A stretch of 56,158 bases of DNA from Silicimonas sp. (GTDB taxonomy: Bacteria > Pseudomonadota > Alphaproteobacteria > Rhodobacterales > Rhodobacteraceae), in contig JAJEFO010000069.1 of the NCBI GenBank assembly GCA_022820365.1, positions 1 to 56,158 of the forward strand. The letters are read 5' to 3'. This document shows positions 80 to 16,422 of the stretch, in pieces. A program made the translations under genes and the position numbers. The notes below the pieces were generated by a model. It had not been told where the DNA came from. It ran no database searches and was given only the letters and a program-made list of their open reading frames with translations. The first letter of the stretch is position 1, and each line of letters opens with the position of its first letter.

Positions 80-1321
80 ATGATACATTCCACCGGCAAC
101 CAATTTGTTCGTCCGCAATGGCGCGGAGGTCCCCTGGCGGCCTGGCTCGATGCGTTCGCGGATCGGGTGAACGCGCAAGGCTATGCCCCATCCACGGCCT
201 GTCGCAAGATCCTGCTGGCTTCCTGCTTCAGCCAATGGCTGAAGCAGGAAGCGATCGAACTCGCCGACATCACGCCGGACCACCCGGCTCGATACCTGTG
301 CTGTCGTTGGCAGGAATTGCGTCCATGCGCAGGCGACAGGCATGCACTCCGGCAATTCACGGATTTCCTGCACCAGGAAGGCGTGCTCTCGTTCGAGGCG
401 GTGCCTGCAGACCCGCTGACCGATGCCGAGCGCTGCGTGCAGGCCTATGAGCGCCACTTGCATCAGACGCAGGGCCTGGCGCCGGCAACGAGAGCGGCCT
501 ACGTCCCGTTCGTCCGGAGCTTTCTGCGCCACCGGTTCGACTCGGGGCCCGTGACGCTCTCGTCCGTGGACGCCGATGATGTCGTGCGGTTCGTCCGGCA
601 CATGGCGCCGGGGTTGAGGCCCAAGCGTGCGAAGGTCATGGCTGCGGCGCTGCGGTCGTTCCTCCGGCATGCCTGCCATCTCGGCGAGGCCGGGCCGGAA
701 CTGGTTGCCGCCGTGCCCGTGGTCGCCAACTGGTCGATGACGCAGCTACCGCGAGGGATTTCGCCCGATCAGGTCCGGAAGCTGCTGGCCGGCATCGACC
801 GCAACTCCGCCACGGGCCGTCGCGACCGTGCCATTCTGCTGCTGCTGCTGGCCCGGTTGGGGCTGCGGGCGGGCGAGATCCAGCTTCTTGAACTCGACGA
901 CATCGACTGGGTCAACGGGACGCTGCGATTGCGGACGAAGGGCGGAAGGTGCAACACCTTTCCCCTGTCCGAGGAGGTCGGCGAGGCGATCGCCGACTAC
1001 CTGCGCGACGGACGGCCGACGTGTCCGGACCGTCGCGTGTTCCTGCGGGCCAGGGCGCCGATCGAGGGGTTTCGGGGTTCCAGCGGCATATCCTGCATCG
1101 TCCGTCGCGCGATCAAGCGTGCCGGCGTGGATGCACCGACATGCGGCGCGCACCAGTTCCGTCACGGCCTGGCCACCGGGATGCTGAACGGCGGGGCCTC
1201 GCTCGGGGAGATCGGCGACGTCCTGGGGCACGCCCATCCCGACACCACCAGGATCTACGCCAAGGTCGACCTGGAGGCTCTCCGCCCGCTGGCCCCTCCC
1301 TGGCCGGGAGGTGTCCGATGA
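80..1321 (+). CDS. ritA: RIT tyrosine recombinase, first of trio (RitA-like)
   Basis: Tyrosine-family site-specific recombinase of 413 residues. An N-terminal SAM-like core-binding region (about 25-215) is followed by the catalytic domain (about 230-405). The catalytic pattern is visible: R in RLGLRAGEI, H-x2-R in HQFRHGLAT, the later H in LGHAHPDTT and the nucleophile Y in RIYAKVD. The ATG at 80 has a purine-rich SD (gagagg) upstream. The stop overlaps the next start as ATGA. It presumably acts with RitB and RitC at the element ends. Family assignment is confident; the division of labour in the trio is not known from sequence. Confidence 0.88.
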   Translation: MIHSTGNQFVRPQWRGGPLAAWLDAFADRVNAQGYAPSTACRKILLASCFSQWLKQEAIELADITPDHPARYLCCRWQELRPCAGDRHALRQFTDFLHQEGVLSFEAVPADPLTDAERCVQAYERHLHQTQGLAPATRAAYVPFVRSFLRHRFDSGPVTLSSVDADDVVRFVRHMAPGLRPKRAKVMAAALRSFLRHACHLGEAGPELVAAVPVVANWSMTQLPRGISPDQVRKLLAGIDRNSATGRRDRAILLLLLARLGLRAGEIQLLELDDIDWVNGTLRLRTKGGRCNTFPLSEEVGEAIADYLRDGRPTCPDRRVFLRARAPIEGFRGSSGISCIVRRAIKRAGVDAPTCGAHQFRHGLATGMLNGGASLGEIGDVLGHAHPDTTRIYAKVDLEALRPLAPPWPGGVR

Positions 1322-2262
1322 ACACGCTTCGCGAAGCCGTCCACGACTACATCGACATGCGGCGCAACCTGGGGTTCAAGATGAACGACACGCGCCGGGG
1401 GCTGCTCGCCTTCGCCACGTTCATGGAACAGCGGCAGGCGCCGTTCATCACCGTGGAACTGGCCCTTGAATGGGCGCAGCAGCCCGTGCATGCCCAGCCG
1501 TCGCACCGGGCGCGCCGATTGAGCTACGTGCGGATCTTCGCGCGCCATCGCAGGGCCGCCGATCCAAGGACGGAGATCCCGTCTCCCGCACTGCTGCCCT
1601 TCCGGCCGAAGCGGGCAAGGCCCTATCTCTATTCGGACGAGGAGATCCGGAAGCTGCTGCAGGCTGCGCTGGACATGTCGTACTTCTCCGAGCGGTGCGC
1701 CCTGCAGCCCTGGCTCTACCACTGCCTGTTCGGCCTGCTGGCCGTCTCCGGCATCCGGGTGGGGGAAGCGTGCGGCCTCGATCTCCGGGACGTCGATCTC
1801 GACGCCGCGGTGCTGACCGTGCGCGGCGCGAAGTTCGGCCGCGACCGGCTTGTCCCGCTGCACGTCACGACCTGCGAGGTCCTGTCGGACTACGTCGCCC
1901 GGCGCGAGCGCCACTGGCGGGACCGTCCGGTGTCGGACTTCCTGTTCGTGTCGGGCCGGGGCAACCGGATCGACCGGGCGGACGTCACCCGAACGTTCCA
2001 CAAGCTGTCGCGCCGGATCGGGCTGCGCGGCGAGACCGACAGCCGCGGCCCGCGCCTTCATGACATGAGGCACCGCTTCGCAACGACCGCCCTGGTGAAC
2101 TGCTACCGGCGCGACCAGGATCCGGACCGTCTCCTGCCGATCCTCTCGACCTGGCTTGGTCACGTGAAGGTCCAGGACACGCAATACTACCTGGAAGCCT
2201 CGCCCGAACTGATGCGCGAGGCCGTGCGCCGTCTCGAAAGCCGCTGGGAGGACCGGCCATGA
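1318..2262 (+). CDS. ritB: RIT tyrosine recombinase, second of trio (RitB-like)
   Basis: A 314-residue tyrosine recombinase starting at the ATG at 1318 that overlaps the ritA stop by 4 bp. The reading frame continues open upstream, but the coupled ATG and alignment with the second copy at 3548 (both begin M-x-T-L) fix this start. Catalytic signatures are SGIRVGEACGL (Arg I), LHDMRHRFATTAL (H-x2-R) and TWLGHVKVQDTQYYL (H, then the nucleophile Tyr). Its last codons overlap the start of ritC (ATGA). It is intact here, unlike the copy at 3548-4471. Confidence 0.87.
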   Translation: MNTLREAVHDYIDMRRNLGFKMNDTRRGLLAFATFMEQRQAPFITVELALEWAQQPVHAQPSHRARRLSYVRIFARHRRAADPRTEIPSPALLPFRPKRARPYLYSDEEIRKLLQAALDMSYFSERCALQPWLYHCLFGLLAVSGIRVGEACGLDLRDVDLDAAVLTVRGAKFGRDRLVPLHVTTCEVLSDYVARRERHWRDRPVSDFLFVSGRGNRIDRADVTRTFHKLSRRIGLRGETDSRGPRLHDMRHRFATTALVNCYRRDQDPDRLLPILSTWLGHVKVQDTQYYLEASPELMREAVRRLESRWEDRP

Positions 2263-3257
2263 CCCGGACGACCGGCCTTGCGCCCCTGCTCGAGCGGTTC
2301 TTCGTCCAGCGCCTGATGAACCAGCGCCAGGCAAGCCCGCACACCGTCAGGTCCTACCGGGACGCCTTCCGCCAGCTCCTGCAGTTCGCGCAGAAGCGTC
2401 TCGGGCGGCGGCCGTCGGACCTGCAGTTCGAGCAGGTCGACGCGCCGCTGGTCGTGGATTTCCTCGACGATCTGGAAGCGACGCGCGGCGTGAGCGCCCG
2501 CAGCCGCAACCTGCGGCTTGCCGCCGTCCATTCCTTCTTCAAGTACGCGGCCTTCGAGCTGCCGAGCCACGCGGACCAGATCCAGAGGGTGCTCGCCATC
2601 CCGTCAAAGCGGTACACGCGCCAGCAGGTCGGGTTCCTCGCGCGTGACGAGGTCGACGCCCTGCTCGCGGCGCCGGACAGGAGCACCTGGTCGGGACGGC
2701 GCGACCACGCGTTCATGCTCACCGCCGTGCAGACCGGGTTCCGGCTTTCCGAGATGACGGGACTGACGCGCGACGACTTCGCCGACGGCGACGGCCGTCA
2801 CCTTCGCGTCGTCGGCAAGGGCCGCAAGGAACGCTGCACGCCCTTGGCGCGGCCGACCAGGGACGTGCTGACGAGGTGGCTGCAGGAGCCGCCGCGGGGA
2901 TCGGACGGCGTGCTCTTTCCCAGCGCCAGGGGCAACCGGCTCGGCGTGGACGGCGTCCAGTACCTGTTGAACAAGCACCGGGAGTCGGCCGCGAAGCGGT
3001 GCCCGTCGCTGGCCGGCAAGAGGGTCACCGTGCATGTGCTTCGACACACCGCGGCAATGGACCTCCTGCAGGTCGGCGTCGAACGGTCGGTGATCGCTCT
3101 CTGGCTCGGGCATGAACGGGCCGAAACCACCCAGATCTATGTCGAGGCGACGCTCGCCATGAAGGAGCAGGCGCTTGCGAAGACGTCGCCGCGAACCGGC
3201 GATCCGGAAAGGTACCAGCCGCCCGACAGTCTCCTCGCCTTCCTGAGCAGTCTCTGA
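2259..3257 (+). CDS. ritC: RIT tyrosine recombinase, third of trio (RitC-like)
   Basis: A 332-residue tyrosine recombinase, start fixed by the 4-bp overlap with ritB. N-terminal SAM-like domain about 1-120, catalytic domain about 140-310. Motifs: TGFRLSEMTGL (Arg I), HVLRHTAAM (H-x2-R), LWLGHERAETTQIY (H and nucleophile Tyr). A C-terminal tail of about 35 residues ends in a run (RYQPPDSLLAFLSSL) almost matched by the ritC of the second copy. The right terminal repeat begins 7 bp after the stop. Confidence 0.88.
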   Translation: MTRTTGLAPLLERFFVQRLMNQRQASPHTVRSYRDAFRQLLQFAQKRLGRRPSDLQFEQVDAPLVVDFLDDLEATRGVSARSRNLRLAAVHSFFKYAAFELPSHADQIQRVLAIPSKRYTRQQVGFLARDEVDALLAAPDRSTWSGRRDHAFMLTAVQTGFRLSEMTGLTRDDFADGDGRHLRVVGKGRKERCTPLARPTRDVLTRWLQEPPRGSDGVLFPSARGNRLGVDGVQYLLNKHRESAAKRCPSLAGKRVTVHVLRHTAAMDLLQVGVERSVIALWLGHERAETTQIYVEATLAMKEQALAKTSPRTGDPERYQPPDSLLAFLSSL

Positions 3258-3264
3258 AGGACAC

Positions 3265-3276
3265 CGGATTATGTCG
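3265..3276 (+). repeat. RIT right terminal inverted repeat
   Basis: CGGATTATGTCG, exact reverse complement of positions 29-40. It starts 7 bp after the ritC stop codon. Confidence 0.8.
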
Positions 3277-3290
3277 GGCAAAGTGAACGC

Positions 3291-3324
3291 AAGCCGTCTG
3301 AATCCCAAGTGGATTCAGCGGCTT
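3291..3324. repeat. Large hairpin just outside the RIT right repeat
   Basis: Positions 3291-3305 and 3311-3324 are reverse complements apart from one bulged base, around a 5-nt loop. The stem is about 14 bp with no T-run, so a simple intrinsic terminator is unlikely. It may be part of the recombinase binding end or an mRNA 3' structure. Confidence 0.6.
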
Positions 3325-3343
3325 GCCGTGACCGCAGGCTGCA

Positions 3344-3384
3344 ACCCGAGATAAGAATCTACCCGAGATAATGTCGTGCACGAG
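3344..3384. repeat. Short direct repeat and degenerate RIT-end sequence
   Basis: ACCCGAGATAA occurs at 3344-3354 and again at 3361-3371. Directly after it, about 3368-3384 resembles the reverse complement of the left-end region 21-40 (14 of 20 positions, with the core ATGTCGTG shared). This may be a second, degenerate RIT end left when the two copies were joined. Confidence 0.4.
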
Positions 3385-3389
3385 ATAGC

Positions 3390-3551
3390 CGGCATTCGCT
3401 GGCGACCGCGATGCTTCGCAATGGTGCCTCGCTTGAGGAGATCGGTCGGATCTTGCGACACGCCCATCCCGACAGCACCAGGATCTATGCAAAGGTTGAT
3501 GTCGAAGCCTTGCGCAGCTTGGCTCCGGCGTGGCCGGGAGGTGCGTCATGA
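3390..3551 (+). pseudogene. 3' fragment of a second ritA
   Basis: Read in the frame ending at the TGA at 3549-3551, this gives RHSLATAMLRNGASLEEIG, then the HAHPD and RIYAKVD segment and a PGGAS end. It is clearly homologous to the last 53 or so residues of the intact ritA at 80-1321. All residues before the H-x2-R motif are missing. Its stop overlaps the following ritB start by ATGA, so the original coupling is preserved. It is a 5'-truncated remnant. Confidence 0.75.
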
Positions 3552-4471
3552 AGACCCTTCCGGCACTGCTCGACGACTACCTCACAATGCGCCGCATGAT
3601 GGGAGCCAAGCTGGTGGAGAGCGAACGTCTCCTTCGTCAGTTCGTCAGCTTTCTCGCGCAACGCGGGACACGCCACATCACTGCCAGGCAGGCCCTTGAA
3701 TGGGCCGCAATGCCGCAGGAATCTCGACCTCCATACCGAGCCCGTCGCCTTGCGGAAGTTCGGCACTTTGCCCGTTACGCTCACGCCATAGATCCCGTTC
3801 ACCAAGTTCCGCCAGAGGGTCTCCTGCCCTACGGCAGCAGCCGACGCAGTCCCCACATATACAGTGACGGAGACATCGTCGGACTTGTCGATGCGGCCCG
3901 TGGCCTGTCCGGACAGCTAAGGCCCCTGACGTATGCAACGATCGTGGCCCTGATATCGGTGACCGGCATGCGCAGCGGCGAGGCTGTCGGTCTCGATCGT
4001 GACGATGTCGGGCGACGTCTCATCACGGTTCGCAACGGCAAATTCGGCAAATCGCGCCTTGTCCCCTGCCATGACACGACCTGCCAGGCACTTGAAGATT
4101 ATGCCGCACGTCGCGACGGGCTTTGGCCGCAGCCACGGTCCGACGCCTTCTTCCTGAGCGAGCAGGGCAAACGCGTAAGCGCCTATACCTTGAGGGAGAC
4201 GTTCGCGAAGCTGTGCCGTGTCACCGGACTGCGCGAACCCGGTGCGGTCCGCGGCCCCCGTCTCCATGATCTGCGACACACATTCGCCGTCAGGGCTCTG
4301 ATGCGGTGGTATCGTGAAGGCCATGACGTCACGCAACGACTTCCCTGCCTCTCGACCTGGCTTGGGCATGTCAGCATCAGCAGCACTCCATAGTACCTGA
4401 CCGCGGTTCCCGAGCTCATGACAGCGGCGGCCCGGCACGTCGATCGGGTGGCGGCGGGAGAGACGTCATGA
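3548..4471 (+). pseudogene. Second ritB, interrupted by an in-frame amber codon
   Basis: It starts at the ATG overlapping the ritA fragment and matches the intact RitB throughout (LLDDYLTMRRMMG, SVTGMRSGEAVGL, LHDLRHTFAVRAL, STWLGHVS). At 4391-4393 a TAG falls beside the nucleophile-tyrosine position (intact copy QDTQYYLEA, here SSTP-stop-YLTA). The same frame then stays open to a TGA at 4469-4471, which overlaps the next ritC start. A product ending at 4393 would lack its C-terminal tail and probably the catalytic tyrosine. A TGG-to-TAG change is the simplest explanation. Confidence 0.75.
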
Positions 4472-5463
4472 ACGGGACAGCAGATCTTCCCCGGCTTCTC
4501 AGCATGTTCTTTGCCCAGCACCTCATGCAGCGTGACGCCAGCTCGCATACCGTGGCAAGCTACCGCGACACCTTCCGACTCCTGGTCAGATACGCCCATG
4601 ACGTGCTCGGCAAACCTCCGCAGGACCTCCGCTTCGACGACTTCGACACGGACTTCCTCGCGGCGTTTCTCGAACATCTCGAAAGCCAGCGCGGGAATGG
4701 GGCTCGTACCCGCAACGCGCGTCTGGCCGCAATCCGGTCGCTTTCCCGGTTCGTTGCGTTGCACGAGCCACGCCACGCAGCGCGCGCCCAACAGATCCTC
4801 GCCATGCCATGCAAGCGCACCGTACGGCAGCCGGTTGACTATCTCGACAACGATGAAGCCAAGGCATTGCTGCAAGCCCCTGATCGGAGCACTTGGGTCG
4901 GGCGACGTGACCACACGCTTTTGCTCGTCGCCGTGCAAACAGGATTGCGGGCCTCGGAACTGATCACTCTGTCGTGCGAAAACGTTCACACCGATGCCGG
5001 AGCCCATCTCCGGTGCCATGGCAAAGGCCGCAAGGATCGCGTTGTCCCCTTGCGACGGGATTCCATGGCCGCGTTGCGCATGTGGCTCGAAGAGCGACGC
5101 GACAGGTCGGACGGACCCGTCTTCGTGAACCAGAGGTCGAGGCCACTGTCTCATGACAGCCTCAACTACCTTCTGGCAAAGAACCTGGCCGTCGCGCGAA
5201 TGAAATGTCTCTCGCTCCAAAAAAAGCGGGTGACCCCACATTCGCTTCGCCACACTTGTGCCATGACGTTGCTGCACAGCGGGGTCGACCAGGCAACGAT
5301 TGCCTTGTGGCTCGGGCATGAGTCCGTCACGACAACTTACGTTTACCTGCATGCCGATCTAAGGCTCAAGGAGCAGGCAATGGCCAAGACCACTCCGATG
5401 GAAACGCCGTTCCAGCGGTACCAGCCCGAAGACACGCTCATCGAGTTCCTGAACAGCCTGTGA
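4468..5463 (+). CDS. RIT tyrosine recombinase RitC of the second, decayed copy
   Basis: An intact 331-residue tyrosine recombinase homologous along its full length to the RitC at 2259-3257. Arg in TGLRASELITL, H-x2-R in HSLRHTCAM, H in LWLGHESVTTT, Tyr in YVYLHADL. The C-terminal end (RYQPEDTLIEFLNSL) also matches. With ritA truncated and ritB interrupted, this copy is probably not autonomous, but the protein could still act with the RitA/RitB of the upstream element. Confidence 0.82.
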   Translation: MNGTADLPRLLSMFFAQHLMQRDASSHTVASYRDTFRLLVRYAHDVLGKPPQDLRFDDFDTDFLAAFLEHLESQRGNGARTRNARLAAIRSLSRFVALHEPRHAARAQQILAMPCKRTVRQPVDYLDNDEAKALLQAPDRSTWVGRRDHTLLLVAVQTGLRASELITLSCENVHTDAGAHLRCHGKGRKDRVVPLRRDSMAALRMWLEERRDRSDGPVFVNQRSRPLSHDSLNYLLAKNLAVARMKCLSLQKKRVTPHSLRHTCAMTLLHSGVDQATIALWLGHESVTTTYVYLHADLRLKEQAMAKTTPMETPFQRYQPEDTLIEFLNSL

Positions 5464-6347: not shown

Positions 6348-6893
6348 GTGAGCAGCATGCCATCTAAGAAATTCAAGGATTTGGTGCACTACATAATCGA
6401 GAAGTGCCCAGACCCGACGCAGCTTGGATCTATTCGACTCAACAAGACTTTGTGGTTTGTTGACGTGCTGTCCTATCAGCGTTCCGGGTCGTCCATCACG
6501 GGCGATGATGTCTACATCAAGCGTCAGCACGGTCCTGTGCCAAAAAAAATCTTGAACGCGCTGCGGCAACTAGAAAAGGAAGGCCGGATCAAAATCCAAC
6601 AGCCCGAGTTCGAGTTTGACACGACCAAGTATGTATCTCTTGTTAGCACCGACGAAAGTGCGTTGGCCGATGATGAGAAACTTCTAACAGACAACGTGTT
6701 GGCCGCGATGTTGGGACACAGTGCCAGCGCAATCAGTGAAGAAACACACGATTTGGTCTGGCGGGCAGTCAAGGTAGGTGATGAAATACCCCTGTTTGCA
6801 ACGCTGGTCAGCGTCAGCGGAAGGATAACGGAAGAAGTATCAGGGTGGGCAGACAGGATTATCAGCAATGCGAACAGTGAGGTTGGCACCTAG
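6348..6893 (+). CDS. Panacea-domain (DUF4065, SocA-like) antitoxin
   Basis: A 181-residue protein with the Panacea pattern: IRLNKTLWFVDVLSYQRSGSSITGDD, then IKRQHGPVPKKI. Panacea proteins act as antitoxins to many unrelated toxins and usually sit beside the toxin gene. The start is taken as GTG 6348 with a ggag SD 6 nt upstream; an ATG at 6357 is the alternative. The last 26 bp overlap a small downstream gene with RelE/ParE-like features, so the two look like a panAT-type module. Base composition is lower in GC than the neighbours, in keeping with transfer. Confidence 0.8.
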   Translation: MSSMPSKKFKDLVHYIIEKCPDPTQLGSIRLNKTLWFVDVLSYQRSGSSITGDDVYIKRQHGPVPKKILNALRQLEKEGRIKIQQPEFEFDTTKYVSLVSTDESALADDEKLLTDNVLAAMLGHSASAISEETHDLVWRAVKVGDEIPLFATLVSVSGRITEEVSGWADRIISNANSEVGT

Positions 6894-7143
6894 TGCAGAA
6901 GAAGCTCTAGAGGCTTGCGAGCAACGGTTTCCCAGATTTGACGAAGTGTATTGGGCATTGGAGTGGCTACTCTCCAATGATCCGGGGAGCCAAGGCGTCG
7001 CTCGTGGCAAGTTCCGCATTTGTCGCCAATTCTCGCAATGGGCCAGCTTGCCTGGCATAGTCGCTGTATACAGCTTTGACGACGACATAGTGGAAATTCA
7101 CGGCATCATGGCCGATGAAACGGTGTCGGAAAATTCCATCTGA
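6868..7143 (+). CDS. Small RelE/ParE-like toxin candidate
   Basis: A 91-residue protein overlapping the Panacea gene by 26 bp. The pattern fits the ParE/RelE fold: an N-terminal strand and helix (VRLAPSAEEALEACEQRFP), a middle ALEWLLSNDPGSQG segment, then alternating strands RGKFRICRQF, GIVAVYSFDDDIVEIHGIMAD. Family resemblance is by pattern only. The inference that it is the toxin partner of the upstream antitoxin rests on coupling and size. Toxin-after-antitoxin order is common in such pairs. Confidence 0.6.
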   Translation: MRTVRLAPSAEEALEACEQRFPRFDEVYWALEWLLSNDPGSQGVARGKFRICRQFSQWASLPGIVAVYSFDDDIVEIHGIMADETVSENSI

Positions 7144-7887: not shown

Positions 7888-8283
7888 TCAACAGCTCGGG
7901 CTAGATCGGTCATCTGCTTCCGCAGAGCGCCCACAACCGCTGTCCCGACACCAGGTGACCTGCCCTCTCTTTACCCAATAGTGAGCCTTGCAAGCGTTGC
8001 GCTGATGAATTGATGGCGACACCGTAGGGCGACCGAGCCAATCCTGAATGACATGCCACCTCGGCCGTCGGTTTGTTGACAATGGAAGCCGCATGATGTG
8101 ATCGCATGTCCCGGGACATGCCAATACCGCCCATTTCGGGTCCCGTTGGGGACCGACGATGAAGATATCACCGGGAGTGATCTCTTCAAGATAGGGCTGG
8201 ACATCGACATGCCGCAACCGCAGGGTGGGCACTTTGACGAGCCCCAACGCAACGAGGCCGCTTAGAAGAAGTGTCCGGATCAC
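7888..8283 (-). CDS. DUF6527-family protein of the ubiquitin-like operon
   Basis: A 131-residue protein translated directly behind the JAB-E1 gene (2-nt gap; GTG start). A hydrophobic N-terminal helix (LLLSGLVALGLV) precedes the conserved DUF6527 pattern: CPGTCDHIMRLPL, a RRPRW block, TVSPSIHQR, then ACKAHYWVKRG and VTWC. The paired Cys/His residues suggest metal binding. DUF6527 genes recur in bacterial Ubl/E1/E2 operons, where a processing or deconjugating role has been proposed; that is recalled knowledge, not checked. Its place as last gene supports membership of the conjugation operon. Confidence 0.75.
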   Translation of the reverse strand: MIRTLLLSGLVALGLVKVPTLRLRHVDVQPYLEEITPGDIFIVGPQRDPKWAVLACPGTCDHIMRLPLSTNRRPRWHVIQDWLGRPTVSPSIHQRNACKAHYWVKRGQVTWCRDSGCGRSAEADDRSSPSC

Positions 8284-8284
8284 G

Positions 8285-9676
8285 TTAGCTCACCCTGTCC
8301 AGGAAGGGCGTGACGTCGCCGGCACCCCAACTGTTGAATTCGCCGCAGATTGGGCACTCGGGATCAATTCTCGCACCAGTGCGCCGATCTTCAGGGACTT
8401 GAAAACGACGTAGTCGCTGGGTCAACGGACGGTCCTGGTGTCGAAATTCAACCAGCATTTGGATCATCTCTTCGATAGCCATTGTTGCCACCGACGTCGT
8501 CATGGAGATGAAGGCTGGTTCGGGATCGCCGCCACCGACGATGTAGCCTTCCTCTTGTTGCTTGGCGTAGGCCTCCGGGTCTCGTTGCGAGAGGTCCTCT
8601 TCTCGCGCGCGAACAGGATCCACGATATTTCGGCACAGAAGGCACGCCGCACCTGGGTATAGAAGGCTCACCCGACCGGTCATATCTCTGATGCGGGTGT
8701 CGCTCTTTTCGATTGCCAAACCGATATCGATAACTGGGATCTCATAGAAATAGGCAAACCGGTTCAGCAAGAGCCTCCCGGCGTGATCATCTGTACAGCA
8801 GAATATTAGATCGACTGAGCTCATCAGATCGCGATGGGCAGGATCAAGAATGTTGCCCTGAATGCCAATGACATCCGTGCCTAGGCCCAACGAATTGATA
8901 TGATTGGCAAGCACATCAGCCTTCGGACATCCGATGTCACCTGCGATGGAGCCATGCAAACGATGAAGGTTCGTTTCTTCGACGACGTCGGGGTCAATGA
9001 TGAGTGGCTGCCGCAAACCGGCTCTGGCGAGCATGATGGCCAAAGGAGACCCGGTACCGCCTGCTCCGACAATGAGCACGCGCAGACCACTAAGAGCTTC
9101 ATTGAATTCCTCGCCGAAAACCCGTGTTTGGCGGTCAAGGTCGTGACCTGTTTTTTTGCGATCTCTCGGTCTGCCCATCAGTCGCAGCAAAGGACCGGTG
9201 ATCGTGACCGGAGCTGGATGCACGGTGTTCGCTTCATTCCAGACTCTGGCCATGAGCTGTTCGCCGGGCAGCGCAAGTAAACTCACAAATTCCCCTTCCA
9301 CCCCATTTCGGTTTTTTGCTGCCAGGGAAAGAGCACTCTCGTTCTCGTCGTCGCGCGTAGAAAACGCCGCGTATCCGCTGGGGTGACCGTGAAGGAAGCC
9401 TGGCATCAGATCGCTGTCTCCCGAACGCTTCAAAATCGAAATGAAAGACGCAGTCTTCACGGTCAGATGTTTCGGCGATGAAGAGACGATGTCTCGCGCG
9501 CCAAATGGCACGATCTCTACTAATATGAAACGCCGTCGCGCCCTGCTGGTGACCGGATCACGCTTGATGGAGGCGGTACTGAACAATGCCCAGGCACCTG
9601 CCTCGTTCTCACGATCGAAGGCCGCGCCGGTCACTGCGTCCAAAAGGCGATGGGGAATGATTATGTCGTAATCCAT
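8285..9676 (-). CDS. JAB (JAMM) peptidase - ThiF/E1 fusion
   Basis: 463 residues. The N-terminal JAB domain (about 1-160) has the textbook JAMM set: E25, H96-x-H98-P, S106, D109 (HGHP-x6-S-x2-D). The C-terminal ThiF/MoeB/E1 adenylation domain (about 185-450) has GAGGTG at 204-209, D228, N236, R239, K252 and a CTDD at 294-297. Two CxxC pairs (C345/C348, C441/C444) can hold a structural zinc. It should activate the C-terminus of a ubiquitin-like protein and also cleave Ubl conjugates or precursors. The ATG at 9676 overlaps the upstream stop (TAATG) with a strong AGGAGG, so the longer open frame to 9850 is not used. Confidence 0.88.
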   Translation of the reverse strand: MDYDIIIPHRLLDAVTGAAFDRENEAGAWALFSTASIKRDPVTSRARRRFILVEIVPFGARDIVSSSPKHLTVKTASFISILKRSGDSDLMPGFLHGHPSGYAAFSTRDDENESALSLAAKNRNGVEGEFVSLLALPGEQLMARVWNEANTVHPAPVTITGPLLRLMGRPRDRKKTGHDLDRQTRVFGEEFNEALSGLRVLIVGAGGTGSPLAIMLARAGLRQPLIIDPDVVEETNLHRLHGSIAGDIGCPKADVLANHINSLGLGTDVIGIQGNILDPAHRDLMSSVDLIFCCTDDHAGRLLLNRFAYFYEIPVIDIGLAIEKSDTRIRDMTGRVSLLYPGAACLLCRNIVDPVRAREEDLSQRDPEAYAKQQEEGYIVGGGDPEPAFISMTTSVATMAIEEMIQMLVEFRHQDRPLTQRLRRFQVPEDRRTGARIDPECPICGEFNSWGAGDVTPFLDRVS

Positions 9677-10578
9677 TACACCACCTCCTGTAAGGCACGT
9701 TCGACACGCTTGATCATTGTCCAGATGCCGTCTTTGCCCGGACGCCATTGCGTGTTGTGGCGAGACCAGCGCTGCCACGTGAGATTGGAGAAGTTCTGGG
9801 GGACATCCGCGCATTTCGGTAAGGCGCCGCTGGACTTCAAACGAAGCCAAGGGTGGCAGTAAAACATGTCGGGAGGGGCGTCAGGATATCCGGCTGGCAT
9901 CAGGATCAGTATGTCAGTCGCCTCGGTGTCAAAGCCTCCATCGGGCAGCGCGAAGTCTTTGAGAACAAGTCCCACCTGGTCCCCATCGCGGACCTCGAGA
10001 AACTCGACGGTTCCCGACTTGAGGTAATGCTGGTCGCGACGGGGCAATGCCCCGCCGCTGATAACATCTCCGGCCGTGGTCTGCTCGATCACGGTAAAGA
10101 AGCGCTCGAGGCCTTCCTCGCTGAGATCGATCAATTGATCGTTGGACACGGGCAGGTCATCGCCCCCGCGTACTTCGCGCCAGAGCGCATAGGTTGCGGG
10201 GTCCACGCCTGCGATCTGCTTGAGCTTCAATCCTGTGATCAGTTTGGCCCCCCATTCGATCCGCTGACCATCAATCTCGAAACGATAGGATGCAGAACTT
10301 TCAAAGGTCAGAAACCGCTCCGCACCAGGTCGCGTAAGATCGACAATTTCATCGAGACGAATTTCCTCAAACCCTCCGCCGCGGAGAACGAGGAAGATCA
10401 GATAGGCATCAACCGGCTTTTGGTCGGTCAGCGCGATAAGTTGCCGCCCGGTTGGCTTGGGATCGTCGATGCGGTAGCGCTCATCGTCAATACGGACGCG
10501 GAAGCGCGTTGCGGAAGGCTGATGTCCGCCTTCAAGAGCGCACTGCTCGAGGTCGATGTATGTGTTGCCGTCAGTCAT
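9676..10578 (-). CDS. Tandem ubiquitin-like domains fused to an E2-like domain
   Basis: 300 residues. Two multiubiquitin-type beta-grasp repeats are visible, about 24-92 (FRVRIDDERYRIDDPKPTGR ... DEIVDLTRPGAERF) and about 96-164 (YRFEIDGQRIEWGAKLITGL ... IDLSEEGLERF). The rest (about 178-300) matches prokaryotic E2 family E: GYPDAPPDMFY, then W-Q-R-W-S-R-H and WRPGKDGIWTMIKRVERAL. Candidate reactive cysteines are C241 and C256. The Ubl repeats are internal, so there is no free diglycine tail. First gene of the minus-strand operon, divergent from the sigma-like gene; SD aaggat. Confidence 0.85.
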   Translation of the reverse strand: MTDGNTYIDLEQCALEGGHQPSATRFRVRIDDERYRIDDPKPTGRQLIALTDQKPVDAYLIFLVLRGGGFEEIRLDEIVDLTRPGAERFLTFESSASYRFEIDGQRIEWGAKLITGLKLKQIAGVDPATYALWREVRGGDDLPVSNDQLIDLSEEGLERFFTVIEQTTAGDVISGGALPRRDQHYLKSGTVEFLEVRDGDQVGLVLKDFALPDGGFDTEATDILILMPAGYPDAPPDMFYCHPWLRLKSSGALPKCADVPQNFSNLTWQRWSRHNTQWRPGKDGIWTMIKRVERALQEVV

Positions 10579-10738
10579 TGGTGTATCCTTTTCAGATGTC
10601 GTGGCGATTTCCGCTCACGCCACAAAAGGCTCTTTTTCGTCTTCGATTCCGACGCGGAGAAAATATTTTTTCGACGTGTCCGAATTGGCGCCTCGCAAGC
10701 GCCTTATGGAAAGTCCCACTAACAAGGAGGGCTGTGCA
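10579..10738. promoter_or_regulatory. Divergent control region between conjugation operon and sigma/ImmA triad
   Basis: 160 bp between the two first genes. It holds a dyad GTGGCG-N11-CGCCAC (10601-10623) close to the Ubl-E2 start, a second dyad GGCGC-N7-GCGCC (10687-10703) close to the triad, and an A/T tract near 10658-10672. An AAGGAGG at 10724-10730 serves the triad. No clear sigma-70 -35/-10 pair was assigned, which would fit use of the adjacent sigma-like factor. Confidence 0.5.
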
Positions 10739-11338
10739 TTGGGCGTGATTGAGCCTGTTGACAGCAAGGAGACGGCAGGACTCCGTGACGAGCTTGGCGC
10801 GTTGAGCGACATCGACAAGCACCGCTTGTTGAAGATCGCGCGAACCTATGCGGCCGTCGCCAGAGATCTTGAACCTGAGGATTTGCTTCAGGAAGCAATG
10901 ATGAAGTCGCTTGAAGAGAATCCTCACGAACGACGAAGGTGCCCAAAGGATCTCAATTTGATCACTTTCCTTGCCGGCGTTATGCGGTCACTCGCCAGTA
11001 ACCGGGTGGAATGGCGCAAGCGACGGAAAGAGGCCGAAGCCGCGGAAGTCCTACACGCGAACTACTCCCTTCTCGCTGCGATCACCGCTGACGAGGCATC
11101 CCGGACGCCGGAAGAGAGCATTTTGCATGCGGAGCATGAGGCTGCCTTTCACGCCTTCCTCGAGGAGCAATGCAAGGGTTGCGAAAAAACCCACCTCGTG
11201 TTGCTCGGTGGGTTTGACGGCCTGCGCGGTCAAGACCTGTGTGACTTCGCTGGCGTGACAAAAATGGAGCTAGCGACGATTCATCGACGGATCGCCAGGA
11301 TGATGAATCGTTTCAAGAAAGAACGGAGCCTATCATGA
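10739..11338 (+). CDS. Sigma-70/ECF-like RNA polymerase sigma factor
   Basis: 199 residues from the TTG at 10739, chosen because AAGGAGG ends 8 nt upstream; an in-frame ATG at 10706 lies before that SD. The region-2-like part reads LLKIARTYAAVARDLEPEDLLQEAMMKSLEE. A charged middle contains RKRRKEAEAAE. The region-4-like helix-turn-helix at the end is LRGQDLCDFAGVTKMELATIHRRIARMMNRFKK. It is divergent from the Ubl operon and coupled by ATGA to a small protein and then an ImmA/IrrE peptidase. Inference: it controls one or both divergent operons. Confidence 0.7.
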   Translation: MGVIEPVDSKETAGLRDELGALSDIDKHRLLKIARTYAAVARDLEPEDLLQEAMMKSLEENPHERRRCPKDLNLITFLAGVMRSLASNRVEWRKRRKEAEAAEVLHANYSLLAAITADEASRTPEESILHAEHEAAFHAFLEEQCKGCEKTHLVLLGGFDGLRGQDLCDFAGVTKMELATIHRRIARMMNRFKKERSLS

Positions 11339-11754
11339 CGACCAGATCCAAACACGAAGAACTGTTCGATTTAGCGGATAACGTCGTCGATGCAATCCGC
11401 GCCAAGACCGACGAGGACATCCTCGCCGAACTCGATGAGGATGGAATTACTGCTGAAGATGCGGGACGTGCATTCGACAGTCTTCTTGACAGCGCTGAAT
11501 TGAAAGCCGGACGAAAAGCCTTCGCCCTCGCGCGAGAAGAAATGGTAGCGGATCGCCGCTCGACGTCTCGCGGCCGGTATGTGAGTGCAGAGGAAGCACG
11601 TGCTCATGTCGCACGGATTGCGCGGCAACAACCGAACCTAACGCAGGCGGCTCGCAACGCATGTTCTGTCCCAATGTCTGACCAGGAAGTACTCGACCTT
11701 CTAGGCGATTTTCGCGAGCTCGGCGTCGAGCTGCCCGGAGGCGGCGATCCATGA
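11335..11754 (+). CDS. Small acidic hypothetical protein between sigma-like and ImmA/IrrE genes
   Basis: 139 residues, starting in a 4-bp overlap with the sigma-like gene and ending in a 4-bp overlap with the peptidase gene. The N-terminal half is strongly acidic and helical (DNVVDAIRAKTDEDILAELD). The middle has basic residues (VADRRSTSRGRYVSAEEAR), followed by a helical region. No family recognised. The position between a sigma factor and a protease suggests an anti-sigma or adaptor that the peptidase cleaves; nothing in the sequence proves it. Confidence 0.65.
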   Translation: MTTRSKHEELFDLADNVVDAIRAKTDEDILAELDEDGITAEDAGRAFDSLLDSAELKAGRKAFALAREEMVADRRSTSRGRYVSAEEARAHVARIARQQPNLTQAARNACSVPMSDQEVLDLLGDFRELGVELPGGGDP

Positions 11755-12554
11755 AAGCGCTATCCCTCGCGGAACAACACCTTCTTCGATACGGCATCAC
11801 AGAACCGGGGCAAATCGACCTCGACACCATCGCGTGGACGATGGGGGCGAAGGTGCGATTCCGGCGTCTCGAGAGTTGCGAGGCGAAGATCACTGGTGTC
11901 CAGAACAAAGCGATCATCACAGTCGATGACCGCTTTGGGGTAAGGCGCGCCCGGTTCTCGCTCGCGCACGAGATCGGGCACTGGGAGAAGCACCGGAACC
12001 AGATATTAGCTTGCGCAAAACAAGACATCGGCTCAGTCAATGGGAAAGCGAAAGCCAAGGAACGGGAAGCAGACCGCTACGCTGCTGAGTTGATTTTGCC
12101 GCGCTTCATGTTCGTTCCTCGGCTAAAGGCATTCCGAAAGCCGTCCTTCGCGGCAATCGACGAGTTGGCTGCTGCCTTCGATGTCAGCCGCAAAGCCACC
12201 GCGCTTCGCTTTGCCGATCTAAGCCAGATGGAGGTCATGTTGATCTGTTTTGGCCCGCATGGGCGGAAATGGTTCCGCGGCTCGTCGTCCTGGCCGGACA
12301 ATTGGATGCCCAAGAGAGGCCATGACCCTGACAACGGTGTCATGGAGCTGTTGTTCGGCAAGAAGAATGAAGCGAAGCGACCGCATCTGCACCCTGCAAG
12401 TGCCTTCTTTGGCCACTACAAAGCTAAAAGATACAACGTCTATGCGCACTCAGTGGTTTCCCGGTCCGATCACGAGAACCGGGAAGTCATGACTCTCGTC
12501 TTTCCTGAAACCGCCGACATGTTCCTGTCATCAGATGCGCACAGTCGCTGGTAA
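11751..12554 (+). CDS. ImmA/IrrE-family metallopeptidase
   Basis: 267 residues. The zinc-peptidase motif HEIGH lies in RFSLAHEIGHWEKH, followed by EREADRYAAELILP, which supplies the third ligand as in ImmA/IrrE (DUF955). The C-terminal about 120 residues form an additional domain with many aromatic and His residues. Family members cleave repressors or regulators upon damage or phage signals (ImmA, IrrE, CapP). Here it is the last gene of the sigma-like / small protein / peptidase triad. Likely role: signal-dependent proteolysis that switches the adjacent operons. Confidence 0.85.
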   Translation: MKALSLAEQHLLRYGITEPGQIDLDTIAWTMGAKVRFRRLESCEAKITGVQNKAIITVDDRFGVRRARFSLAHEIGHWEKHRNQILACAKQDIGSVNGKAKAKEREADRYAAELILPRFMFVPRLKAFRKPSFAAIDELAAAFDVSRKATALRFADLSQMEVMLICFGPHGRKWFRGSSSWPDNWMPKRGHDPDNGVMELLFGKKNEAKRPHLHPASAFFGHYKAKRYNVYAHSVVSRSDHENREVMTLVFPETADMFLSSDAHSRW

Positions 12555-12697
12555 GTCACATCGTCGTAATGGCCATGATGCTACCGGAATCGACCCCAAT
12601 TCAGATGAGGCTGCGAGGTTGACTTGTCTGGACTTCACCTGAGGACCGTTTCTCTGTACGAACACCGCACGTCCACAGTGCTGAATATTGATCTGCA

Positions 12698-12705
12698 CCA
12701 ATAGG
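12698..12705 (+). repeat. Flanking direct repeat, left copy
   Basis: CCAATAGG here and at 16482-16489. The last two bases overlap the inverted repeat as defined above. Probable target-site duplication, possibly enlarged by chance matches. Confidence 0.5.
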
Positions 12706-12741
12706 CCCCATCGGAAGGTTTCTTCGTAGAACCACGCTAAG
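12704..12741 (+). repeat. Tn3 left inverted repeat (38 bp)
   Basis: Begins GGCCCCATCGG and ends CGCTAAG, the inner end expected for Tn3-family repeats. It matches the reverse complement of 16446-16483 at 37 of 38 positions. The tnpA stop codon (12739-12737) lies inside it. Confidence 0.88.
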
Positions 12742-15715
12742 GGAGAACAATTGGCGAACTATACTGCGCACTCCCATCTCTGGTGGACCTGATGTGCAAT
12801 GGCCGTGCAATTTTGCGCTCTGCGGCCCCGGAATGCCAGTCGAAGTCGCCGGACAGGATGATGTGCTCCCATCCGAGCGGCGATGTGTGCGGCAGGAGAG
12901 CCTGGTCGTGCAGCGGACTGGTCCGGGCGAGATGGCTGGCCGCTTTGTCCATGTAGATCGTGTTCCAGAACGTGATGGCGGCGATGACGAGGTTGAGCGC
13001 CATGGCGCGTTTCTGTTGGCCCGCGTCGGAGCGATCGTGGATGCGCCCTTGTGAGTGTGCAAATACGGCCCTGGCCAGTGAGTGGCGCGCTTCGCCCTTG
13101 TTGAGACCTGCGTGGCATTCCATGCGCAGATCGGCGTTCTCGATCCAGTCGAGCATGAAGAGCGTGCGTTCGATCCGGCCGATTTCACCGAGGGCAAGAT
13201 ACAGCCGGTTCTGTTGCCGGTACGCCCCAAGCTTGCGCAGGATTTCGGACGGTTTCAGGGACTTGTCCCGAATGCTGGCCGCGAGCCGCATGATGTCGCC
13301 CCAATGCTGCCGGATCACCTCTTCGTTGATCGGCTTGCCGATTATGGGCGACAAAGTCGCCCACGTCTTCGCGGTTCCGAAGCAGGTCAATCGCCGATCG
13401 GGGAAGTCGCGCAATCGCGGCGCGAAGCTCATCCCCAACAGGTGGAACAGGGCAAAGACGTGGTCCGACACGCCGCCGGTATCTGTGTAATGGACGAGGG
13501 GGTCAAAGCTGGCTGGATTTCCCAGGAGACCATCGAGCACAAAGGGTGCCTCGCCTGCCGTCGCTCCGATCACACTGGAATGGAACGATCCGTATTGGCC
13601 GGACAGGAAGGAGTAGATCTTCAGCCCGGGGTCTGGCCCGTATTTGGCGTTGATGTCCCCGCTGCCCCGGTTGGCGGAGAAGAACTGGCCGTCCGACGAG
13701 CTGTGTTCGGCCACGCCCCAGTGCTGCGCAAAGGAAAGGCCATGATGAGCGTCTACAATGCGGCCCAACGCATCGGCGAACGTCTCTGGCCGCAGGTACC
13801 ATATCTGCGCCCAGGTCAGTTGCGCATGACTGACACGCGATGAGGCATAGGCCATCCGCTCAAGCCCGAGATTGGTCGCCCCGGCCAGGATCGTGGCCAA
13901 GACGGCAGCAGGCTCATCGTGATGCTTGCCAGACCGCAGGTCGGTGAAGGCGTCGAGGAACCCCGTCTGCGCATTCACCTCCCAAAGCAACTCCGTGATG
14001 CGGATACGTGGCATCACGGCGTCAATCGCCCGCTCCAGGCGCACCGCGGCGGGGGGCGTCACCGCGTCATGTGGCGTGATCTTCAGTCGCCCGCGCTCAA
14101 TCCGGACACCGGCGAGGGCGTTGCGTTTCAAGGCGTGGTCCACTTGGTCAAGGCGTTTCGCCAGCGTGGCCCGGCGATCAGCCAGCCAGAACTCCGGACT
14201 GGTCTCGAAGCCAGCGTCCCGCATGACGGCTTCGGCATTGCCTCGGGGCATGAGATAGCTGTCGAAACGGCGATACTCACGGCTGCCATCGACCCAGACA
14301 TCCCCGGCGCGCAAACGGTCTCGCAAGGTGGAGACAACGGCGGTTTCGTAAACGCGCCGCTTCGGCTGACCGTCCTGAACGATCAGCGACCGCCAGTGCC
14401 TGGCGGCGAACGGCATGGGCGGATCATCCGGCAACTTGCGCTTGCCGGTCTGGTTCTGGTCGCGCAACAAGGCAATCGCGTCCTTGAGCTCATCCCCCGC
14501 ATCGGTGGCATTGAACTGGAAGGCTTCAAGAAAGGCAGGAGCGAACTTGCGCATGTAGGCATAGCGCTCAGCTGCCAGGGAAAGCGGGTCACTGGTGGCC
14601 AGTTCCCCGAAGCCGGCGATTTCATCTCGGGTGCCCAAGAGCTTGTCCCAACCGATTTCCGCATCAAGCGCAGCAAAGGGATCCTGCCCCAATTCCTGGG
14701 CACGGGCCATGGCATCAATGGTGGAGCCGAAGAGCTGCATCAGCTTGCCGACCCGTGCCTTGCCCATACGCCAAACCTCCTCCTGGCGGTTGCGGGATCT
14801 TGAGTACAGCTGGCCGGTCAGCCGCTCGAACATGGCGATGGCCGCGTCGGTGATCGTGATGGACAAACCCGTCATCTGTGCTGCCAGCGTTGCTATCCGC
14901 CGCCGCTCACCAAAGTCGTTCAGCAAACTCACGGGTGCCACGGCGCCTTCGCGCGCGAACTTGAGCAGCCGGTCCGGGTGAAGGCCCTGCCCAAGGTCTG
15001 GCGGCAAGTCTAATGATCGCAGATACTTCAGACGGTCCAGAAGCGCGGTCATGCTGGTGGGGCTCGTCGAATGCGGAAAGCCGCGCAACCAGGTGAGCCG
15101 CGTTTGCCCAACGGATGGGTCGTTCACCAGAAGCCTCTGCAGCCTGCCGCGCCGTTCCGGTGACAGGGCGTCGAACAGCGCGGCGGCGGCCTCCCGCCGC
15201 GCGCGTGCGCGGCCCTTCAAGGCGAGGCGCTCGATTGTGTTGGCGCTCGGCAACACCAGACGGTGCCTTCGCAGTTCCGCAATGAGCATCTCGACAATCC
15301 TGACGCCGTGATCCGTCGCGAATGCAGCCCTCGTGGCAGTGTCTTCTGCCTGCTGCACATGCTCCGGCCCGAAGGAAGACAGCCCCAAATGATGCATCGC
15401 GAGGGCATGGTGTTCGTGCCGGGTGTTTCGCCTGGCGGCATAGTCGTCGAGAGAACACGCATCGACCTGAAGTTGCCCTGCAAGCCAGGTGATCAATTCA
15501 GCGGGCGGCATGAGGTCTTCGCTCCACCCCAGGCCAGGGTGGCGCAGCAGGGCAATATGCACCGCAAGCCCAATGTGGTTTTCGGCGCGACGCCGGGTGC
15601 GGATCAAGTCAATGTCATCTCCGCTCAGCAGATAGTGACGGATCAAGGCTTCAGAATCCGTCGGCACCCCGAACAGTTCCGCATGCGCGCGGGAGGAAAG
15701 AAGTCTGCGAGCCAT
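12737..15715 (-). CDS. tnpA: Tn3-family transposase
   Basis: 992 residues, normal for TnpA of this family (about 950-1000). The N-terminus (RLLSSRAHAELFGVPTD) and the conserved C-terminal blocks (LNLVIAAITFWNTIYMDKAA, then SPLGWEHIILSGDFDW) are diagnostic. The central and C-terminal parts carry the RNase-H-like DDE core. It starts at the ATG at 15715 and reads away from tnpR. The stop codon lies in the left inverted repeat. The frame is intact, so transposition may still be possible. Confidence 0.93.
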   Translation of the reverse strand: MARRLLSSRAHAELFGVPTDSEALIRHYLLSGDDIDLIRTRRRAENHIGLAVHIALLRHPGLGWSEDLMPPAELITWLAGQLQVDACSLDDYAARRNTRHEHHALAMHHLGLSSFGPEHVQQAEDTATRAAFATDHGVRIVEMLIAELRRHRLVLPSANTIERLALKGRARARREAAAALFDALSPERRGRLQRLLVNDPSVGQTRLTWLRGFPHSTSPTSMTALLDRLKYLRSLDLPPDLGQGLHPDRLLKFAREGAVAPVSLLNDFGERRRIATLAAQMTGLSITITDAAIAMFERLTGQLYSRSRNRQEEVWRMGKARVGKLMQLFGSTIDAMARAQELGQDPFAALDAEIGWDKLLGTRDEIAGFGELATSDPLSLAAERYAYMRKFAPAFLEAFQFNATDAGDELKDAIALLRDQNQTGKRKLPDDPPMPFAARHWRSLIVQDGQPKRRVYETAVVSTLRDRLRAGDVWVDGSREYRRFDSYLMPRGNAEAVMRDAGFETSPEFWLADRRATLAKRLDQVDHALKRNALAGVRIERGRLKITPHDAVTPPAAVRLERAIDAVMPRIRITELLWEVNAQTGFLDAFTDLRSGKHHDEPAAVLATILAGATNLGLERMAYASSRVSHAQLTWAQIWYLRPETFADALGRIVDAHHGLSFAQHWGVAEHSSSDGQFFSANRGSGDINAKYGPDPGLKIYSFLSGQYGSFHSSVIGATAGEAPFVLDGLLGNPASFDPLVHYTDTGGVSDHVFALFHLLGMSFAPRLRDFPDRRLTCFGTAKTWATLSPIIGKPINEEVIRQHWGDIMRLAASIRDKSLKPSEILRKLGAYRQQNRLYLALGEIGRIERTLFMLDWIENADLRMECHAGLNKGEARHSLARAVFAHSQGRIHDRSDAGQQKRAMALNLVIAAITFWNTIYMDKAASHLARTSPLHDQALLPHTSPLGWEHIILSGDFDWHSGAAERKIARPLHIRSTRDGSAQYSSPIVLP

Positions 15716-15855: not shown

Positions 15856-16422
15856 ATGACCCGAACGGGAGACATTCTCGGATACGCAAGGGTCTCAACC
15901 GTCGATCAGGATCTGTCCGGCCAGAAGGACCGATTGCTGCAGCACGGCGCGGTACGCGTGTTCGAGGACGTCATCTCAGGCAAGACGTTCAACCGACCCG
16001 GCCTGGCTGCCCTGCTCGAACAGGCCCGCCCCAACGATTCGCTCGCCGTCATCCGGCTCGATCGCCTGGGCCGGTCGCTCAGAGAATTGCTGGAAACGGT
16101 CGATGACCTCAACGCGAGAAAGATCAACCTGATCAGCCTGGAGGAGCGGATCGACACGACGTCCGCCGCAGGTGAGCTGGTGTTCCATGTCTTCGGCGCC
16201 ATTGCGCATTTCGAGCGTCGCCTGATCTCCGAGCGCACAAAAGACGGACTGATCAACGCACGAAGGCATGGTCGCGCCCCTGGGCGACCGCCATTGCCGC
16301 CCGAGACAGTCTCAGCTCTCCAAGACCTCGTCGGTGCTGGAAAATCCGTCTCACAAGCCGCCAAGCATCTCGGCATAGGCAGATCAACAGCTTACAAGGC
16401 GATCAGGAACGCGACGCACTAA
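15856..16422 (+). CDS. tnpR: Serine resolvase of the Tn3 element
   Basis: 188 residues, the usual resolvase length. Catalytic serine in GYARVSTVDQD (about residue 14), RLDRLGRS and the ERRLISERTKDGL helix of the recombinase core. The C-terminal HTH is SVSQAAKHLGIGRSTAYKAI. It resolves cointegrates at res and probably represses tnpA and itself. Divergent from tnpA, and it ends about 24 bp inside the right inverted repeat. Confidence 0.92.
   Translation: MTRTGDILGYARVSTVDQDLSGQKDRLLQHGAVRVFEDVISGKTFNRPGLAALLEQARPNDSLAVIRLDRLGRSLRELLETVDDLNARKINLISLEERIDTTSAAGELVFHVFGAIAHFERRLISERTKDGLINARRHGRAPGRPPLPPETVSALQDLVGAGKSVSQAAKHLGIGRSTAYKAIRNATH

Follow-up and report, generated by a model that had tools for sequence, protein, structure and literature searches.

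A bacterial ubiquitination-like operon of Silicimonas sp. and its probable divergent controller, an ECF-type sigma factor, a candidate anti-sigma factor and a CapP-like peptidase

A total of 544 bacterial ubiquitination-like (Bub) operons have been identified, and known controllers are found next to many of them, with CapW or CapH+CapP beside 219 operons and CapK+CapS beside 59 (PMC13373217, EMBO J. 2026). These controllers are all repression-based (PMC13373217). Single-stranded DNA activates the peptidases CapP and PprI/IrrE, which cleave repressors (PMC13373217, PMC10904395). Here we describe a Bub operon on a contig of Silicimonas sp. (JAJEFO010000069.1), of which the whole analysed stretch of 56,158 nucleotides is called the window. 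Three overlapping genes on the opposite strand are divergent from the operon and encode an extracytoplasmic function (ECF)-type sigma factor, a small protein that we call X and a CapP-like metallopeptidase. We think it probable that the operon (BubAB, BubCD, BubE) is controlled by this divergent trio. With somewhat less assurance, we favor the view that the trio represents a further class of controller, in which a CapP-type protease activated by DNA damage would destroy an anti-sigma factor and so free an ECF sigma factor. The latter would use a mirror-image pair of promoters to turn on operons of the Bub, cyclic-oligonucleotide-based antiphage signaling system (CBASS), 6A-MBL-like and other types, and control would be positive and self-amplifying instead of lifting a repressor.

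The original prediction for positions 7888-10578 proposed a ubiquitin-like (Ubl) conjugation operon, and domain searches bear this out. Judged by sequence, the identity of the three genes is far beyond chance. The first, bubAB (9676-10578, minus strand, 300 aa), fuses two multiubiquitin-type Ubl domains (10300-10503 and 10093-10287) to an E2 family E domain (9685-10047); Pfam places Multi_ubiq in two stretches (E 1e-36) and Prok-E2_E (E 2e-44), all above cut-off. The second, bubCD (8285-9676, minus strand, 463 aa), overlaps the first at TAATG and joins a JAMM/JAB peptidase domain to an E1 (ThiF, E 7e-39). The Prok-JAB match is sub-threshold (16.7 bits versus a cut-off of 25); the JAMM residues E25, H96, H98, S106 and D109, numbered from the ATG at 9676, match HxHx7SxxD exactly as had been predicted. 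The E1 nucleotide motifs are complete, again as claimed, with GAGGTG at residue 204 and with G204, T208, G209, D228, D230, R239, K252 and D296 kept in 39-40 of 41 unique relatives. The last gene of the operon (7888-8283, minus strand, 131 aa) occupies the BubE slot and encodes a DUF6527 protein (PF20137, E 7e-20), which we take to be BubE. A PDB search gave no solved relative of it (best chance match E 0.51), and no mention of DUF6527 was found in the open-access literature searched. PHROGs and NCBIfam returned nothing beyond ThiF-type relatives and families without function.

Domain matches and solved relatives place the operon in the Bub class, an already known type. The closest solved chain to the bubCD protein is Citrobacter BubCD (9ea4, E 5e-31). 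The bubAB protein matches four solved multi-ubiquitin proteins (E 1e-23 to 8e-28; 8u38/9d5b are among the relatives of its Ubl part), Citrobacter BubB (9eae/9eav) through its E2 part (E 1e-11) and BubA at E 0.004. Like Citrobacter BubA, BubB and BubCD (9ea4, 9ea5, 9ea8, 9eae, 9eav), the window encodes Ubl, E2 family E and JAB-E1 with HxHx7SxxD, but here a single protein holds both BubA and BubB, with TTAG at the junction inside it. The window's E1 has Cys at 345/348, unlike the aligned Citrobacter chain, and also at 441/444, positions beyond that alignment. The architecture is not unusual, since 18 distinct loci, including the window, fuse Ubl and E2 (20 open reading frame rows; other loci keep the two apart) and the class has already been named and counted (544 operons, PMC13373217).

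The Ubl-E2 junction allows predictions about how the pathway operates. The original prediction stated that the Ubl repeats have no free C-terminal tail. This is incomplete, as the linker between the second Ubl and the E2 holds TTAG (residues 167-170; 10069-10080, minus strand). Among free-standing Ubl (BubA) rows, 15 of 22 carry TTEG terminally or no more than a few residues before the terminus, and in Nostoc and Synechocystis the last residues are exactly TTEG; the rows without it are L051, L053, three Ubls of another type (L076-L078) and two off-frame rows. Of the 20 fused rows, 16 likewise have TTEG or TTAG ahead of the E2 (exceptions L052, L073, L075 and L087). Since the TTAG junction is the counterpart of the free TTEG end, the "missing" tail probably lies within the chain, as a processing site, and a single cut after G170 would release the E2 and uncover the end of the modifier.

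Cysteines of the E2 had been put forward as catalytic candidates. Their conservation argues otherwise: of 36 unique rows, 9 have a Cys at the position of C241 and 20 at that of C256, and C13 lies outside the E2 domain. By comparison, W271-S272-R273-H274 is invariant in all 36. Thus, the cysteines are unlikely nucleophiles, and the serine of the WSRH motif is the likely carrier of the modifier. A variable Cys together with an invariant WSRH is consistent with conjugation of an oxyester type by E1 and E2. The Citrobacter Bub pathway studied by Ye et al. in 2026 reportedly proceeds through oxyester, not thioester, intermediates. For the DUF6527 protein, all 40 unique rows share C56, W76, P90, S91, C98 and H101, from which we infer a Ser/His protease role. 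The junction and the E2 without a conserved Cys give precise predictions for the cut site of the fusion and for the modifier-carrying residue.

A multiubiquitin gene is present in 20 of 390 genomes of an order-level sample. Relatives of the query protein (P0001) occur in 175 of 72,556 plasmid records and in none of 50,697 phage records, and carriage by phages was rejected on this count; two pattern matches in viral contigs were not confirmed. That the genome might hold a further Bub operon was also considered and rejected, as the match on contig C118 proved to be a DUF6527 fragment standing alone, with no E1 in the available sequence before it. This fragment (L054, 4067-4348) resembles the proteins of L003 and L011 and is perhaps the relic of a second operon. 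The original prediction pointed to phage defence. According to PMC13373217, protection from phage by Bub operons has not been demonstrated to date, and more global stress responses are possible. It is conceivable that Bub is a general stress-response modifier system and not anti-phage immunity. We hold this to be the less probable view, though one with appreciable weight, given the carriage on plasmids and a controller in common with CBASS and 6A-MBL-like operons.

The trio spans 10739-12554 on the plus strand, outside the interval of the original prediction, which recognised the operon but did not mention this module. The first gene (10739-11338, with its start at TTG 10739 or GTG 10745) encodes the ECF-type sigma factor. 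The seven best PDB matches of a profile built from 24 relatives are all sigma factors (E 3e-5 to 6e-3), with profile positions 13-181 aligning with ECF SigH and 29-183 with SigE. Pfam Sigma70_r2 is matched at E <= 0.1 by 7 of 13 members, the window member falling below cut-off, and none of the members has a Pfam match to region 4. The second gene (11335-11754) encodes X, a helical protein in its predicted model and a candidate anti-sigma factor, in which a TxAAR-like C-terminal motif is conserved across an alignment of 22. The third gene (11751-12554) encodes a CapP-like (ImmA/IrrE, M78) metallopeptidase, supported by PADLOC capP (E 1.7e-49), Pfam Peptidase_M78 and a profile of 25 relatives matching solved CapP (7t5t, E 2e-24). 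Its HExxH...E motif is intact, and H73, E74, H77 and E104 are invariant among the relatives.

Between the sigma gene and the operon there are two outward-facing promoter-like elements. The sigma-facing one, TGTCCGA-N17-GCCTT (10677-10705, plus strand), scores 10/12 (shuffle p 0.005) and is the single exact match of this pattern in the window; the bub-facing one, CGTCGGA-N17-GCCTT (10626-10654, minus strand), scores 8/12 and is put forward on the strength of its relatives. ECF promoters typically have two boxes with a spacer of 16-17 bases and are autoregulated. The gap of L093, a CBASS locus, displays the arrangement as two identical two-box elements facing outwards, TATGC-N17-TCGGACA ... TGTCCGA-N17-GCATA. 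The element had been spotted by eye in several loci ahead of scoring, in which 20 gaps of sigma loci were compared with the L093 element (TGTCCGA-N17-GCATA, out of 12; cut-off at least 9). The means show a sharp maximum at a spacer of 17, with 9.6 on the target side and 10.2 on the sigma side, against 7.2-7.95 and 7.5-8.4 at other spacers from 10 to 24. A score of at least 9 is reached by the target-facing element in 13 of 20 sigma loci versus 1 of 17 Bub loci without a sigma gene (Fisher 4e-4), and by the sigma-facing element in 17 of 20, including the window, versus 1 of 17 (Fisher 1e-6), values that are overstated because some loci are close relatives (e.g. L015/L018/L072). The 17 controls were hand-chosen among the Bub loci without a sigma gene, with 200 bases each compared with gaps of 106-321; L051-L053, L057, L059, L060, L068, L073, L075-L078 and L087 were left unscored.

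Six loci were scored after the first set, taking the best of spacers 16 and 17. On the sigma and target sides, respectively, the scores are 12 and 11 for L100 and 10 and 9 for L092 at spacer 16, and, at spacer 17, 11 and 9 for L119, 12 and 7 for L088 (from 99 sigma-side bases only), 10 and 6 for L067 and 9 and 7 for L097. L099, from the first set, scores 7 and 7 at spacer 17 and 12 and 10 at spacer 16. In addition, the boxes vary in pairs. The second box is GCCTT on both sides in the window, and L098 has TGTCCGC...CCTAA on both sides, as expected if one factor reads both.

The same trio recurs. It is divergent beside Bub in ten loci (the window, L003, L004/L012, L011, L015, L018, L055, L067, L070 and L065+L088), and an eleventh, L072, is cut by a contig end; all are in Rhodobacterales or in the window's own family. 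An IS256 transposase interrupts the Bub operon of L015, and that of L055 is truncated. L061, on the same contig as L003, and L004/L012, from the same species, were counted once, and L065 and L088 are two ends of one contig, taken to be a circular plasmid and left unjoined. The X profile matches 6 of 380 genomes of the order-level sample, five strongly, all of which have multiubiquitin, and one (G336) weakly and without it; some circularity enters here, since sequences from four of the five strongly matching genomes went into the profile. A search of plasmids with the sigma factor matched 42 distinct records. The 21 examined gave 16 loci beyond those reached through Bub; the other 21 comprise five further ones from Cereibacter, five further ones from the Bradyrhizobium japonicum group and eleven others. 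A full trio is present in 11 of the 16 (L090, L091, L093-L096, L098-L100, L102 and L103), and five of these 11 face immune operons, four of them CBASS and one 6A-MBL-like. The CBASS operons, with CD-NTase, are faced directly in L099 and L103 and behind one small gene in L093 and L102. The 6A-MBL-like operon, in L096, has Prok-E2_A, ThiF and JAB in one protein; its first gene was assigned as MBL by reading only, with no match from Pfam. L101, where the trio is incomplete, faces a Bub-type Ubl-E2 gene.

Several observations weigh against control by a sigma switch. The sigma model is of low confidence (pTM 0.41), and its top Foldseek matches, mostly sigma factors, include none at E <= 0.001. The model of X (pLDDT 75, pTM 0.36), although all-helical, has no fold match, and X has no Pfam or solved relative (PDB, E < 0.1). 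The bub-facing element of the window is weak taken alone (shuffle p 0.33), and of the 20 loci, 7 score below the cut-off for the target-facing element and 3 for the sigma-facing one. Besides the kinship that inflates the Fisher values, L067 and L088 are closely related to loci that had been scored. In a mirror test free of any consensus, only 7 of 20 loci (L015, L093, L099, L096, L090, L094 and L098) have a value reached by at most 2 of 60 shuffles, the pair in L099 differs from the promoter element, and in the window 16 of 60 shuffles match the observed value. Across its own genome, the promoter pattern with at most one mismatch gives 48 matches versus 55 for the reversed control, which is no excess. 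A wider sigma regulon in this genome was rejected on these counts; a purely local regulator would predict the same. Lastly, the sigma gene occurs without a full trio in L092, L097, L101, L104 and L119.

Some of these data can be read in another way, with the sigma-like protein and X as a CapH in two pieces that sits on the mirror-image sites, and with the CapP-like protease cutting X to lift repression. PADLOC capH, a repressor family, is matched by 11 of 22 X proteins (best 6e-8; the X of the window matches no PADLOC model), which also speaks against X as an anti-sigma factor. The protease is CapP-like, the described target of CapH+CapP is a repressor (PMC13373217), and symmetric sites could serve as operator arms. 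We nevertheless regard this explanation as unlikely. The sites are two-box elements with the 16-17 base spacer expected of ECF promoters and face outwards both ways, the sigma profile aligns along full-length ECF factors, and the X profile has no match to seven helix-turn-helix (HTH) proteins in the CapH slot of other Bub loci. The reading of X as an HTH protein was itself set aside, with no support from Pfam, PDB or Foldseek. That the trio is a passenger, shuffled into defence islands independently and with no control over its neighbor, is very improbable: mobile elements lie near several trio loci and no immune operon is recognised divergent from 6 of the 11 full trios, a count that also tells against an immune controller (a 92-aa protein in L090, L091 and L094, DUF3892 in L095, Beta_protein in L098 and an IS21 insertion in L100), but this idea does not account for the divergent orientation, the short shared gap or the target-facing element in 13 of 20 loci versus 1 of 17 controls.

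We return to the sigma switch as the preferred explanation. It is based on gene identities, conserved residues, gene order, the recurrence of the trio beside immune operons and the paired promoter-like elements, all of them features of the DNA and its translations; from these we infer the anti-sigma role of X, single-stranded DNA as the signal and every biochemical step. An immune switch made of protease, anti-sigma and sigma factor is known (Calp), and with a CapP-like protease in this locus the simplest reading is that X is an anti-sigma factor. In the resting cell, X would keep the ECF sigma factor inactive. DNA damage, for example during phage attack, would yield single-stranded DNA, which would activate the CapP-like peptidase to cut X. 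The freed sigma factor would then act at two mirror-image promoters, one for sigma, X and peptidase and the other for the Bub operon. Once expressed, a protease, most likely the DUF6527 protein or else the JAMM domain, would cut the fusion behind the TTAG glycine, setting free the E2 and a modifier of two Ubl domains that ends in glycine. The E1 would adenylate the modifier and hand it over to the E2, probably to the WSRH serine and not to a Cys. Target proteins would receive it from the E2 and lose it again through the JAMM domain. Harmful immune operons need to be kept off until they are required. If our proposal is correct, a sigma switch common to ubiquitin-like and cyclic-nucleotide immunity would mean activation with feedback, which is a different logic, and would suggest the signal that turns Bub on.

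The surroundings of the operon are mobile, as the original prediction held. On the left are four tyrosine recombinase genes with Phage_integrase matches (80-5463, plus strand); the open reading frames 80-1321, 949-2262 and 2259-3257 are overlapping or adjacent and the fourth is at 4468-5463. On the right are a Tn3-family transposase (12737-15715, minus strand; DDE_Tnp_Tn3 E 1e-130) and, beyond it, a resolvase (15856-16422). The plasmid records with relatives agree with this setting. An antitoxin-like protein with a SocA/Panacea domain (6348-6893, plus strand) is followed by a 91-aa open reading frame (6868-7143) with no Pfam match, and the pair 6348-7143 is possibly a toxin-antitoxin system beside the Bub operon. 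Elsewhere, in L012 (Pseudosulfitobacter), the gene at 11172-12872, immediately downstream of the Bub operon, is annotated as an anti-phage dCTP deaminase. The Bub loci L014, L016 and L017 have a divergent small regulator, an acetyltransferase-like or hypothetical gene, an HTH gene and an ImmA gene, apparently another type of controller; Bub loci without the trio have HTH and ImmA genes, or neither. A similar 92-aa protein, starting IY[AS]INYDL after residue 1, is the first divergent gene beside the trio on four plasmids (L090, 5081-5359; L091, 5541-5819; L093, 4501-4779; L094, 4565-4843), once ahead of CBASS; Pfam gives no match for the copy in L093. In L090, a restriction-modification system lies on the opposite side of the trio. 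L104 and L119, on Bradyrhizobium plasmids, have the sigma gene without a CapP-like gene, divergent to a small gene and a gene of the rRNA adenine N-6-methyltransferase family.

In the open-access literature, among the top matches of several lists, we recognised no report linking ECF sigma factors to CapP-like proteases or to the control of Bub or CBASS. A three-gene switch of sigma factor, X and protease is apparently undescribed so far. Prior mention of the trio in CapH+CapP or Bub papers outside the literature covered is possible, and some trio loci may have been counted earlier as CapH+CapP. CapK+CapS and CapW likewise sit at the promoters of immune operons, Bub and CBASS among them, and respond to DNA damage; unlike the trio, they act by repression and have no sigma factor or peptidase (PMC13373217). 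The CalpL-CalpT-CalpS system of type III CRISPR likewise uses protease, anti-sigma and sigma factor as a transcriptional switch, but its protease is a Lon-SAVED protein sensing cyclic tetra-adenylate (cA4), whereas that of the trio is a CapP-like M78 metallopeptidase (PMC12751052). CalpT/CalpS and X/sigma are likened by description only, X having no PDB match at E < 0.1. CapH+CapP, a controller of CBASS and Bub, likewise has a CapP-like peptidase with an intact HExxH...E and is divergent beside immune operons, and weak capH matches are seen for half of the X proteins. CapH is an HTH repressor, whereas X has no HTH by Pfam, and the trio differs further in its third protein, the ECF-type sigma factor, and in its paired outward promoter-like elements.

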